A stretch of 64,000 nucleotides of DNA, from the NCBI GenBank assembly GCA_019316985.1, contig CP079215.1:2046001-2110000 (forward strand), written 5' to 3'. Source of the stretch: Paraniabella defluvii. Its GTDB lineage: Bacteria > Bacteroidota > Bacteroidia > Chitinophagales > Chitinophagaceae. Position numbers and translations under genes: made by a program. A model generated the notes under the pieces. That model worked only from the letters and a program-made list of their open reading frames with translations, did not search any database and was not told the DNA's origin. Of this stretch, positions 22,638 to 26,231 are shown one piece after another (the first letter of the stretch is position 1; the number at the start of each line of letters is the position of its first letter).

Positions 22638-23708
22638 ATGAAAAAGATATTATTACCCCTGGCACTAGCTACTGCAACCATTTTAGCTTTGGTTTCCTGT
22701 AAGAAGAATGATAACCCTGCTATTCCTGTTGGTGATGACCGGGCATCGGCCCGCATGATGCAGGCTTTTTCGAAAAGCATGCGCCACAAACAGAAACATT
22801 CAATCTTGATGCTGCGGCAGGCGGCACTATTACTTTAAAAAGCGGTACAAAAATCACTTTCCCGGCCAATGCTTTTGTTAAGCCCGATGGGTCTCCGGTT
22901 GCGGGAGCGGTAACGGTTAGTGCCAAAGATATTTTAAAAGCCAGCGATATGATACTGGCGAATAAACCAACCGTTACCTCTTCGGGCCAAATGCTGGAAT
23001 CTTTTGGTGAGATCATCGTAAACGCCAGCAAAATGATACGGCGCTGCGCATAAATCCTGCGGTAGTGCAGCGGCCACCAACTGTAATGGTACCAGTGGGT
23101 ACAGCTACCGGGGCCAAACGCGAGGCGCCTATGTGGGAGGGAGATACAACAGTTTCTTACACCAATAATGGCTATAACCATGACAATCAGCCTACATCTG
23201 TAACCATTCAGTATTCGGTATCTAAAGGCATCGACTGGAGCCAGATCCCGGGTTGGGGAGCTGTTAATGGCGGTACTACTATTTTTCCGCTTGATGCTTT
23301 GGGCCAGTGGAGAAATTGTGATGCACTATACAATGATCCTAATCCTAAAACAACGGTACTGGGATATTTTGGCGATAAGTTCAACGGGCAAACCGGTTCG
23401 GCAGGTCAAACGCCCAGCATGTTGTTCTTTAAAAAGCAGGAACGAATACATTGATCAATTATTCGGTGATGATATTAAACCCCGCCCCGGTAAAGAAGGT
23501 TTTTAAGCTACCAGAATTCAATGCCCATAGGCACTTCGGGTACTTTTTTAGCAATGAGTGCAAAAGAGGGGAAGTTTTATGCGGAAATGAGAGATGTGAC
23601 GTTTGGAGCGCCCCGGCTGGAAAAGATTTTATCTCTTATAATTTTTCACTCACCGAGGTTTCAGAAACCCAACTTTTAAATCTCATCAACCAAATTAATA
23701 CCAAGTAG
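22638..23708 (+). CDS. Lipoprotein downstream of the CHAT gene
   Basis: Lipobox ILALVSCKKND. The mature part has ITLKSGTKITFPANAFVKPDG, a pattern seen in Bacteroidota surface lipoproteins with a ZU5/carboxypeptidase-regulatory-like beta-sandwich (KITFPANAF, VSAKDILKASDMILANKPT, MLESFGEIIVNAS). The C-terminal part ends in MRDVTFGAP and SYNFSLTEVSETQLLNLINQ. About 355 residues. Frame breaks near 22790, 23035, 23440, 23520 and 23615. It lies 61 bases after the CHAT gene on the same strand and probably belongs to that module. Confidence 0.75.
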
Positions 23709-23751
23709 CATCTAACCTTTAAATCCCGCAAAAGAAAGGGTTGTTAACGGC

Positions 23752-23776
23752 AGCCCTTTTGCGTTGTAAAAGGGCT
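23752..23776. terminator. Hairpin between lipoprotein gene and small RNA A
   Basis: AGCCCTTTT, seven-base loop, AAAAGGGCT. A 9-bp perfect stem. It could end the lipoprotein transcript; the T-run lies on the other strand, so the direction is unclear. Confidence 0.5.
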
Positions 23777-23782
23777 AAAAAG

Positions 23783-23911
23783 AAAAAGGTCCTTCCGTAG
23801 AAACGGACTGACCTCTAACGATTGCTTGCCATATGAAAAATCTTCGAAAAATCTAGTTCATGTCGCTCTTCACTGTTTCCGTTCCTCTGTAATAACCCCT
23901 TTGTGTTATTG
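23783..23911 (-). ncRNA. Small RNA copy A
   Basis: Minus-strand gene, about 129 nt. The -7 box TAATTTTG lies at 23917-23924. The RNA starts with a stem-loop (GUA..AUAAC with GUUAUUAC), then a U-rich linker (AGATTTTTCGAAGATTTTTC), a conserved core ATGGCAAGCAATCGTTAGAGG-like, and a Rho-independent terminator at 23787-23814 (AGGTC-AG-TCCGT, loop TTCT, ACGGA-AG-GACCT) followed by five T. The core and terminator are identical in all four copies. Confidence 0.8.
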
Positions 23912-24149
23912 TTACACAAAATTAATTGACAAAACGACAAATATAAAAGCAACTTGTTGATAGTTATCTTACCTCCAAAGGGCATTAGTTCCCCTACAAT
24001 CCTTTACCATGCTGTATTTCAAAGAAAGTTTTAAAAGACAGCCAACTACAAAAAACGATTTAGCTGATATAAAAATGGAACATTATCAGATCAGCCTGTT
24101 TGGGATTTGCAGGGAACTATGGGTTTAAGTAACAGAACAGCCTAAAAAG

Positions 24150-24278
24150 AAAAAGGTCCTTCCGTAGAAACGGACTGACCTCTAACGATTGCTTGCCATA
24201 TGAAAAATCTTCGAAAAATCTAGTTTATGTCGCTCTTCACGTTTTCCTTTCCTCTGTAATAACCCCTTAGTGTTATTC
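24150..24278 (-). ncRNA. Small RNA copy B
   Basis: Same layout as copy A and nearly the same length. The -7 box TATTTTTG is at 24284-24291, the 5' stem-loop uses AATAAC with GTTATT, and the terminator hairpin is at 24154-24181. Sequence similarity to copy A extends upstream of the promoter (shared TTTGTCGTT region), so the duplicated unit includes the promoter. Confidence 0.8.
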
Positions 24279-24489
24279 TGATACAAAAATAATTGCAGTA
24301 ACGACAAATACAAAAGCAAATAACTTGCCATTTAATTGTATTCAACCCCTATAAATTTGCCCGGGCCCTTTATAGTAAAGGGTTTCAGCCGTTTTTTTGC
24401 AGTACGCCCAAGGGTATAAATAAACCCCAATACAATTGTAAAAGCCGGGTTATTAAAACTGTGGCGCAATGCCGGAGCATCTTTAAATG

Positions 24490-24585
24490 AAAAAGGTCCT
24501 TCCGTAGAAACGGACTGACCTCTAACGATTGCTTGCCATATGAAAAAAACTTAAAATCTAATTCTTTTAGAAGCTTTTCGCTTCC
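24490..24585 (-). ncRNA. Small RNA copy C (short form)
   Basis: About 96 nt. The -7 box TATCTTTG is at 24591-24598 and the terminator hairpin at 24494-24521. The 5' part has diverged: the stem-loop is a different sequence (GAAGC-gaaa-AGCTTC), and the linker is shortened. The core and terminator are unchanged. This pattern, a changed 5' arm with kept structure and a fixed 3' half, argues for a functional RNA. Confidence 0.78.
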
Positions 24586-24839
24586 TGATACAAAGATAGA
24601 TTACAAAAAGTGGTCCGAATAATAAGTTAATGTTAATATTCTCACCGCAAAAGCTGGTAAAATAGTATCAAGTGCCCACTGGAGCTGCATTACAGCTGAT
24701 TTTCATTGTTACTTCCAAACACCTCTAAATCATCAGTGTAATTGATTTGAAACAAGTATTTTTTGACTTTTTATCAACACCTTTTAAAAAAGTTTAAAAA
24801 AAGTTAATCGGTATATAAAATAATTATACCTTAGCGAAC

Positions 24840-24986
24840 CTTTATATCAGGAAAACGAACCGGGTGTAAAGAGAAACTCCTCCTAAGCGTAGCAGGTGTT
24901 TTTAAAAGACCTCTAATTGATTGCCTCTAACGATTGCCGGCCATGTGCTGATTTAAAATTTTGATCCGGGTTTTCCCGGATTTTTT
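24840..24986 (+). ncRNA. Plus-strand RNA complementary to the small RNA core
   Basis: A possible -7 box TACCTTAG (24827-24834, one mismatch) and a strong Rho-independent terminator (ATCCGGG, TTTT, CCCGGAT at 24964-24981, then TTTTTT) define about 147 nt. Inside lie two adjacent sites matching the plus strand of the small RNA repeats: a close copy GACCTCTAATTGATTGC (24909-24925) and CCTCTAACGATTGC (24924-24937) followed by GCCAT. The second gives a 14-base perfect complement to each of the four minus-strand RNAs, with a further GCCA after a two-base gap. A role as sponge or decoy is inference. Confidence 0.62.
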
Positions 24987-25011
24987 ATTGGCCACCCAAA
25001 AGCTTTTAATT

Positions 25012-25142
25012 AAAAAGGTCCTTCCGTAGAAACGGACTGACCTCTAACGATTGCTTGCCATATGAAAAATCTTCGAAAAATCTATTTGAAGTCCTTCTGC
25101 ACTACATCTCTCCGCTCCGGTCAATAACCGTATGTGTTATTG
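25012..25142 (-). ncRNA. Small RNA copy D
   Basis: About 131 nt. The -7 box TAAATTTG is at 25148-25155. The 5' stem is a perfect 7-bp pair (CAATAAC with GTTATTG), which differs from copies A and B by paired changes. Core and terminator (25016-25043) match the other copies exactly. The linker-5' region is the most divergent of the three long copies. Confidence 0.8.
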
Positions 25143-25160
25143 TTACACAAATTTAAGCCA

Positions 25161-25473
25161 TATAAATACGGTTATAAAACCAAGTTGCAACATCTTTTTC
25201 CTTTTCCAAATACCTATAATAGCCCTGGAGTTCGCTCTGGTAAAGGCTTTCAGGCGATGAAGCATATTATATCCAAGCATATAAATCAATGCTCAGCCAG
25301 CTGGTTAAACCCGTTTTTTTCTCTTTTTTATAGCAGGGGCAGGGCCTGTAATAAAATATTCGGTGTAATCAGGCGTTTATAAAGTATGGATCTCTGACTG
25401 GTAAGATCACGACTGGTTTCCTTAACATTTTCTTGTAATTCGGAATTATTCTAATATCAGTAGATTTGTAATT
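25161..25473. other. Intergenic region before MerR gene
   Basis: About 310 bases with no convincing gene; the one open frame across it has no signal, motif or sensible composition. It should hold the promoter of the MerR-type gene. Confidence 0.4.
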
Positions 25474-26231
25474 ATGGCGAAGACTACTTCTCAATCTCAG
25501 GGTTCATTTTCCTTTTTCGATGAAATGGATAAGGTTGATCCATTGCCACAGCCTAAAAAGCATGTACTAAGGCCGCCAGCCCAGATTGAAGTGGTGGAAG
25601 ATGAAAAAACAGCCTTTGAAAAGGTAGAGGAAGCGCTTCCTGTAGCGGAACAGCCGGAGCCCAATGCTGCAGAACAGATTGAGGTGGCCGCAGACACGGC
25701 TGTGGAAGAGGCGCCTGAAGATGATTTGGAGGAACAGGTTGAAACGGAAGGTGGCGCTGCGGAATTTTCCGGCGAGGATAAAGTGCGCACGGGAGAAAAA
25801 ACGGTTGTTGGCCTGCAAATGACGTATTACAGGATAGAAGGAGTCCGAGAGGACGTAAATCAGTGAAGGAGCATAGCCTGGCAGCCGAAATGATTGAAAT
25901 GCCGGGAGACGATGTATTATATGCGAAGCAGTATTACAGCATGGGAGAAGTTACCGCTATGTTTAAAGAAAATCATTCATTGATCCGCTACTGGGAAAGT
26001 GAGTTTGATATTTTGAAACCAAAGAAAAATGGTAAGGGAGATCGCTTTTTCAGACCTGTAGATGTAAAAAATCTTTACCTGATATATGATCTGTTGCGCA
26101 GGCGGAAATTTACTATTGAAGGAGCCCGCGACTACCTGAAGAACAATAAAAAGGCCGACGAAAAATTTGCTGCGGTGCAGTCTCTGGAAAAAATAAAGGC
26201 CTTTTTCCTGGAGCTCAAAGCATCCCTTTGA
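25474..26231 (+). CDS. MerR-type transcriptional regulator with acidic N-terminal tail
   Basis: The N-terminal 100 residues are an acidic, Glu/Ala/Pro-rich, probably disordered tail (EVVEDEKTAFEKVEEALPVA and so on). After a break near 25800 a basic RGRKS stretch leads into the DNA-binding domain: YYSMGEVTAMFKENHSLIRY, WESEFDILKPKKNGKGDRFF, RPVDVKNLYLIYDLLRRRKF and TIEGARDYLKNN. This is a MerR helix-turn-helix plus wing, then a short helix for pairing. The Chitinophagaceae family with this tail plus RGRKS layout is about 250-300 residues, in line with the repaired 253. Target genes are unknown. Confidence 0.8.

Follow-up and report, generated by a model that had tools for sequence, protein, structure and literature searches.

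A multicopy family of candidate small RNAs, probably restricted to Chitinophagaceae, whose constant core shows excess complementarity to start regions of SusC-type genes in two genomes

Spot 42 of the enterobacteria and Vibrionaceae is a single-copy, Hfq-dependent RNA that pairs near the translation starts of catabolic and uptake mRNAs. For Bacteroides, the FopS/GibS small RNAs have been described, FopS being a family of 14 paralogues that carry one common seed and a terminator, are preceded by canonical Bacteroides sigma promoters and include one member derived from a 3′UTR (PMC11697453; PMC7366714). According to these descriptions, the seed is the single-stranded 5′ end of an RNA of about 65–70 nt, the RNAs target the start codons of SusC-type mRNAs (PMC11697453), no obvious Hfq is present in Bacteroides and the RRM protein RbpB binds the FopS RNAs (PMC11697453; PMC7366714). 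A further small RNA of the Bacteroidota, Rfp18 of Flavobacterium, is described as conserved in the genus, and its third stem-loop is the part by which it is predicted to base-pair with mRNAs encoding metalloproteases and adhesins (PMC9723704).

Here, we analyzed a window of 64,000 nucleotides from Paraniabella defluvii, the minus strand of which carries four tandem copies of a candidate small RNA that differs from all three systems in one or more respects. With FopS it shares the existence of many siblings, the single seed and the terminator, and SusC start codons may be targets here as well. RRM_1 proteins, the type to which RbpB is assigned in the FopS descriptions, are present in the window genome. 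On the other hand, the seed abuts the terminator and lies 3′ of a variable 5′ arm in a predicted RNA of 96–131 nt, the predicted targets extend beyond SusC, and matches to the covariance model R1 described below occur only in the window's family in the samples searched, whereas FopS is reported for Bacteroidaceae in the descriptions cited above. Because the seed is located at the opposite end of the RNA, we do not file the family as a member of FopS; by analogy it would work like FopS and would be set apart by the layout of the RNA, a comparison drawn from descriptions of FopS rather than from its letters. The likeness to Spot 42 consists in catabolic and uptake mRNAs that are predicted to be paired near their translation starts, while the difference lies in the many copies found here and in the absence of an Hfq match over the Pfam cut-off in any of 59 genomes, among which a single match fell below it (genome G019). 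Rfp18 resembles the family as a conserved RNA of the Bacteroidota whose predicted target mRNAs are functionally related; it is not called multicopy in the description drawn on here, whereas the RNA family described here is.

All four copies (A–D, Table 1) are identical over 53 bases, CATATGGCAAGCAATCGTTAGAGGTCAGTCCGTTTCTACGGAAGGACCTTTTT, as evident from the reading of the strand and from a genome scan in which the reversed pattern gave no match, and the tandem copies with an identical 3′ part that had been noted in the preliminary description are therefore borne out. A fifth genomic copy with one mismatch is located about 150 kb from the array (G000:C1:2220529-2220581, G000 being the window genome itself). 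Table 1 also lists a further, degenerate core that had been overlooked in the preliminary description; this variant occurs in two other genomes of the same genus (G003 and G012) and adjoins a symmetrical hairpin, TCCGGGAAAACCCGGA. No frame of at least 60 codons extends over the array apart from one on the plus strand (25134-25382), which shares positions with copy D at its promoter end, and neither tRNA nor tmRNA genes are found in the window. Rfam yielded no match in the window at gathering score, and a permissive search of positions 23500-25500 returned eight matches that were all far under the cut-offs (E 0.7-8.8; best 20.6 bits as compared to a cut-off of 54). The core letters were found in no open-licence PMC paper, in agreement with the earlier statement that no known family was recognized, and a search of the openly accessible literature gave, among the papers listed, no relevant report on small RNAs of the Chitinophagaceae.

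Table 1. Positions of the array features in the window
Feature	Position	Strand	Sequence	Basis or remark
sRNA copy A	23783..23911	(-)		predicted transcript ~129 nt, start inferred from box
Copy A, 53 identical bases (core + Rho-independent terminator)	23783..23835	(-)		genome scan
Promoter box of copy A	23917..23924	(-)	TAATTTTG	strand reading
sRNA copy B	24150..24278	(-)		predicted ~129 nt
Copy B, 53 identical bases	24150..24202	(-)		genome scan
Promoter box of copy B	24284..24291	(-)	TATTTTTG	strand reading
sRNA copy C	24490..24585	(-)		predicted ~96 nt, differing 5′ arm
Copy C, 53 identical bases	24490..24542	(-)		genome scan
Promoter box of copy C	24591..24598	(-)	TATCTTTG	strand reading
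Degenerate core, then second core-like motif	24924..24947	(-)	ATGGCCGGCAATCGTTAGAGG	own box/terminator: none by eye
sRNA copy D	25012..25142	(-)		predicted ~131 nt
Copy D, 53 identical bases	25012..25064	(-)		genome scan
Promoter box of copy D	25148..25155	(-)	TAAATTTG	strand reading

With regard to its distribution, the 21-base core was detected with at most two mismatches in 30 of 59 relatives, namely in 17/17 genomes of the genus including the window genome and in 13/19 other genomes of the same family, while none of the 23 genomes from other families of the order contained it. The covariance model R1, comprising core and terminator, matched 101 of the 147 genomes that represent the window's family, with one to ten matches per positive genome, the window genome itself having five copies. 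The search of Bacteroidota genomes proposed in the preliminary description returned 63 positives in an order sample of 298 genomes and 11 in a phylum sample of 395, which may or may not include Bacteroidaceae, and all positives listed belong to the window's family. Within that family, four genomes of genus g7 (G022, G277, G281 and G293) were devoid of R1 matches. R1 is nearly a sequence model, as RNAalifold gave a meaningless structure of six pairs for 24 aligned core-terminator sequences because terminators of unequal length were misaligned, and divergent relatives beyond the family could escape it. An exact scan of named genomes with the core found at least 119 stretches; among the 80 matches listed, 58 carry titles naming Chitinophagaceae or genera that we take to belong to this family (Niabella, Niastella, Segetibacter, Hydrotalea, Sediminibacterium, Flavihumibacter, Terrimonas and others) and 22 are labelled otherwise (Bacteroidetes, Chitinophagales, Sphingobacteriales, Flavobacterium, Pedobacter, Flavipsychrobacter). 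The RNA family is multicopy and, in the samples searched, probably restricted to the Chitinophagaceae.

The constant part consists of GCAAGCAATCGTTA following TTTTCATAT and is located directly ahead of the terminator. As the core served as search word for a set of 165 copies, its conservation among these is a consequence of their selection; the adjoining TTTTCAT is kept at 95-99% in the same copies, the hairpin behind the core varies, and GCAAGCAATCGTTA is what remains constant once 19 diverged copies detected with the model are included. Each of the four predicted structures of the window copies contains the terminator hairpin, which also co-varies across the family, consistent with the Rho-independent terminator noted earlier: in nine sequences, all from one of several length classes (25 nt), 97% of the cells are paired and five of eight pairs are altered on both sides, the covariation score being reached by 0/500 shuffles and the number of both-side changes by 10/500, while the number of pair types is not in excess (345/500 shuffles reach it). 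In the 5′ arm, the predicted folds of copies A, B and D contain the stem AATAAC/GTTATT, and since its pairs are the same in all three, the paired changes between A and D asserted in the preliminary description find no support. The different hairpin attributed to copy C can be drawn by eye (GAAGC-GAAAA-GCTTC) and is missing from the predicted minimum-energy fold. The core is partly open in the predicted folds, with a mean unpaired fraction of 0.41-0.62 in A–D and of 0.72 in the fifth copy, while UUUUUCAUAU is mostly paired in A–D (0.20-0.50 unpaired). The conserved function seems to reside in the core, adjacent to the terminator, rather than in the 5′ stem-loops.

A TAnnTTTG box is present ahead of each window copy at the four positions given for it previously. 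Among 156 of the 165 family copies that remained after a filter had removed nine, 78 have such a box at -160 to -30 of the core, as compared to 5% of shuffled upstream sequences. In a transcription map of Flavobacterium, the motif is given as the sigma-A consensus (PMC9723704). Some relatives of copy C (L014, L015, L016, L021 and L023) are very short, with only about 31 nt from box to core, and by eye show a possible hairpin AAGTTA/TAACTT in place of GAAGC/GCTTC. As copies occur both in tandem and scattered within a genome, a mobile or selfish REP-like repeat devoid of regulatory function could be envisaged, but such an element would not be expected to bring along promoter boxes, co-varying terminators and a constant core with changing flanks, nor similar arrays of two longer copies and one short one in several species of the genus, and we regard this origin as scarcely credible. 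The preliminary description had named a mobile repeat without kept structure as the outcome speaking against a duplicated functional RNA family, and the data do not show such a repeat. The core kept amid changing surroundings, the enriched boxes and the co-varying terminator support the interpretation as a duplicated functional RNA family, and the absence of an Rfam match at gathering score in the window supports its position outside known families. The original observation as a whole is partly confirmed.

The core also contains a short frame, ATGGCAAGCAATCGTTAG (MASNR), the stop codon of which is kept as TAG or, in the diverged copies, mostly as TAA, as would be expected for a translated peptide. 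However, ATG is replaced by ATA in four of the 19 diverged copies (L207, L211, L215 and L224), synonymous changes in GCAAGCAATCGT are absent from all 19, and TTTTCAT ahead of the frame is equally conserved. A peptide would, moreover, leave the complements at start codons described in the following unexplained, and its translation is highly improbable.

The complement of the core, CCTCTAACGATTGCTTGCCATATGAAAAA, reads as AACGATTGC followed by a start codon and an MK-type continuation. Because of this resemblance to a translation start region and because FopS acts at SusC start codons, leaders of SusC genes (TIGR04056, positions -60 to +25 relative to the first ATG of the frame) were hybridized in silico with the core using RNAduplex and compared with 200 dinucleotide-shuffled cores. 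For G003, of the same genus, 50 leaders from 56 matches gave z -3.5 (0/200 shuffles as low), the initial 30 loci having a mean duplex energy of -14.17 as opposed to -11.96 for shuffled cores (0/200), and for G031, representing a second genus, 50 leaders from 57 rows gave z -3.7 (0/200). G277, a genome of the same family without R1 match, showed no such effect (49 usable of 50 leaders taken from 56; z -0.2, 81/200). The value for the window genome was z -1.9 (7/200) with 17 usable leaders of 26 tried, this low yield being due to broken SusC genes in the assembly. These SusC genes are fragmented, with 83 matches of which many are partial vs. 56 mostly full-length ones in G003, and the assembly, for which a completeness of 72% is given, looks rich in frameshift errors. 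No excess was apparent at the starts of other genes, of which 200 out of 554 in the named loci were taken (z +0.6, 41/60 shuffles equally low), or for the wrong strand (z +1.0 to +1.7). When the 14-nt word alone was tested on 30 leaders each, 0/300, 27/300 and 162/300 shuffles were as low for G003, G031 and G277, respectively, so that the effect of the word by itself is weak in G031. The SusC-start effect is modest, amounting to 2.0-2.3 kcal/mol in the mean. SusC starts exceed the expected complementarity to the core in the two sRNA-bearing genomes G003 and G031 and not in G277.

A scan of all 147 genomes of the family with the pattern AACGATTGCTN{0,5}ATGA, which was picked after the SusC sites had been seen and shares one site of G031 with the preceding test, detected 153 sites as compared to 22 for the reversed pattern, a few overlapping matches entering these counts twice. 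The 101 genomes with R1 match accounted for 133 sites (reversed 18) and the 46 without for 20 (reversed 4), a difference significant in raw counts unscaled for genome size (Mann-Whitney p 4e-6). We read 90 sites, 30 loci and 60 further ones in list order, leaving out overlapping repeats and one site at a contig end; 89 could be placed, L366 being the exception. Frames of at least 100 codons open at 43 of the 89 and not at the other 46, as compared to a baseline of 15.9% for ATGA occurrences across the named loci. Such long frames follow 42/81 sites in R1-positive genomes and 1/8 in R1-negative ones, and in the latter single case the methionine is internal, since the Pfam match starts at profile position 104. 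Read as a DNA or translation signal in its own right, AACGATTGCT near start codons would occur irrespective of the RNAs, which would carry its complement for some other reason. That sites outnumber their reversed control in R1-negative genomes as well agrees with this idea, but the unremarkable SusC starts of G277 and the scarcity of true gene starts among the eight sites read in R1-negative genomes do not, and we consider it very unlikely.

Based on a Pfam scan of 42 of the 43 long frames, 38 of the 89 sites are credible gene starts, some of them homologues or orthologues of each other (e.g., L369/L398, L403/L405 and L432/L433). Thirty-one are transport or catabolic genes according to a reading of Pfam names, nine of these being of SusC/SusD type. 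They comprise eight SusC-type receptors and one SusD; five MFS transporters, two SSF and two SBF symporters, one aquaporin-type, one acetate-permease type and one periplasmic sugar-binding type protein; one PfkB kinase and one xylose-isomerase-like barrel (under the Pfam cut-off); one GH20, one arabinofuranosidase, one sialate-esterase type and one Gfo/Idh/MocA protein; and one each of PhyH, acyl-CoA dehydrogenase, CoA transferase and arginase. Outside the 31 are two AraC regulators and five others (redoxin, DnaJ, HGSNAT-like, metallo-hydrolase and PSCyt). L397 and L406 were dropped as gene starts as they have no Pfam family, L436 as it lay outside the Pfam scan, its first 70 residues being equal to those of L406, and L437 and L439 as their Pfam match begins inside the domain. 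Duplex energies of the 38 credible sites range from -14.2 to -24.9. The strongest duplexes near genes of the window fall on putative frames and were left out of the evaluation. In the window genome, the site at the gene for a sodium:bile-acid-type (SBF) symporter, located at G000:C1:5512783-5512799, covers the start codon with -22.9 kcal/mol, and the same site with the same energy is found in G003.

Building on the computed conservation, the lineage restriction in the samples searched, the complementarity excess at SusC starts and the gene classes at the sites, we propose, at a probability of roughly 70%, that the copies are sibling trans-acting sRNAs with their own promoters and terminators that pair at mRNA starts and thereby repress carbon uptake and catabolism. 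Transcription of each sRNA would begin at its own promoter and end at its own terminator. In the cell, the constant stretch UUUUCAUAU-GGCAAGCAAUCGUUA would pair with the translation start region of the mRNA, UUUUCAU binding the start codon together with the A's behind it (AUGAAAA), and AGCAAUCGUU binding the AACGAUUGCU that immediately precedes the start codon. Ribosomes would thereby be kept from entering mRNAs that encode SusC/SusD glycan importers, sugar transporters and catabolic enzymes, and the RNAs would probably switch sugar uptake and breakdown genes off, repression being the direction that we infer. The presence of several copies may allow dosage effects or separate control by each promoter, with nutrient status as the presumed signal. 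A compensatory change between seed and target could not be shown because the seed hardly changes.

Not all family members conform to the window copies. At least one core-like motif in addition to the core occurs in the 5′ part of 41 of the 156 copies when a loose pattern is applied, L110, L112, L113, L119, L123 and L133 carrying such motifs near the 5′ end (e.g., CATACGGCAGGCAATCGTTAAAATAGGCAAGTCGTCAGAGGTC in L123), and these copies are possibly multi-seed RNAs. The same motifs, together with the very high conservation of the word and the two to three RRM_1 proteins per genome in G000, G003, G031 and G277, would also be in line with the core as binding site for an RNA-binding protein, e.g., of the RRM type, that is titrated by the RNAs as sponges while mRNA pairing is secondary. 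This is unlikely in our view: RRM proteins are likewise encoded in G277, which is devoid of the RNA, and titration predicts neither the gene classes at the sites nor that SusC starts are enriched for the complement instead of the word as such, with no such enrichment in G277. Thirty-five of the 156 copies are situated within 150 bases after a frame ending in repeats rich in D, T, K and A such as DTTKK (e.g., L013, L048, L117, L121 and L127). GCTTGC, which is complementary to the GCAAGC of the core, lies upstream of the core in 15 of these 35, in 0/78 boxed copies and in 1/43 others (shuffled expectation 1.5%), and in 10 of the 15 it pairs with the core in the predicted fold. This antiseed could shield the core or act as a sponge. 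It is conceivable, albeit rather doubtful, that one near-invariant word constitutes a family-wide code for carbon uptake, in which the sRNAs carry the word, mRNAs for importers, transporters and catabolic enzymes the complementary sequence over their start codon, and 3′ regions of DTTKK-protein mRNAs the word again, often along with an antiseed (GCUUGC) that would shield it or sponge the sister RNAs, such that expression of that protein would tune the whole regulon.

The Chitinophagaceae are a large group of polymer degraders. If the proposed pairing holds true, the RNAs would control carbohydrate use globally, at the post-transcriptional level, in this group, and a design as in FopS, with siblings that act through one seed on SusC start codons, would exist in another lineage with another RNA layout. 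Catabolite control in these bacteria, in which Hfq was not detected, would then become directly testable via a few named sites.
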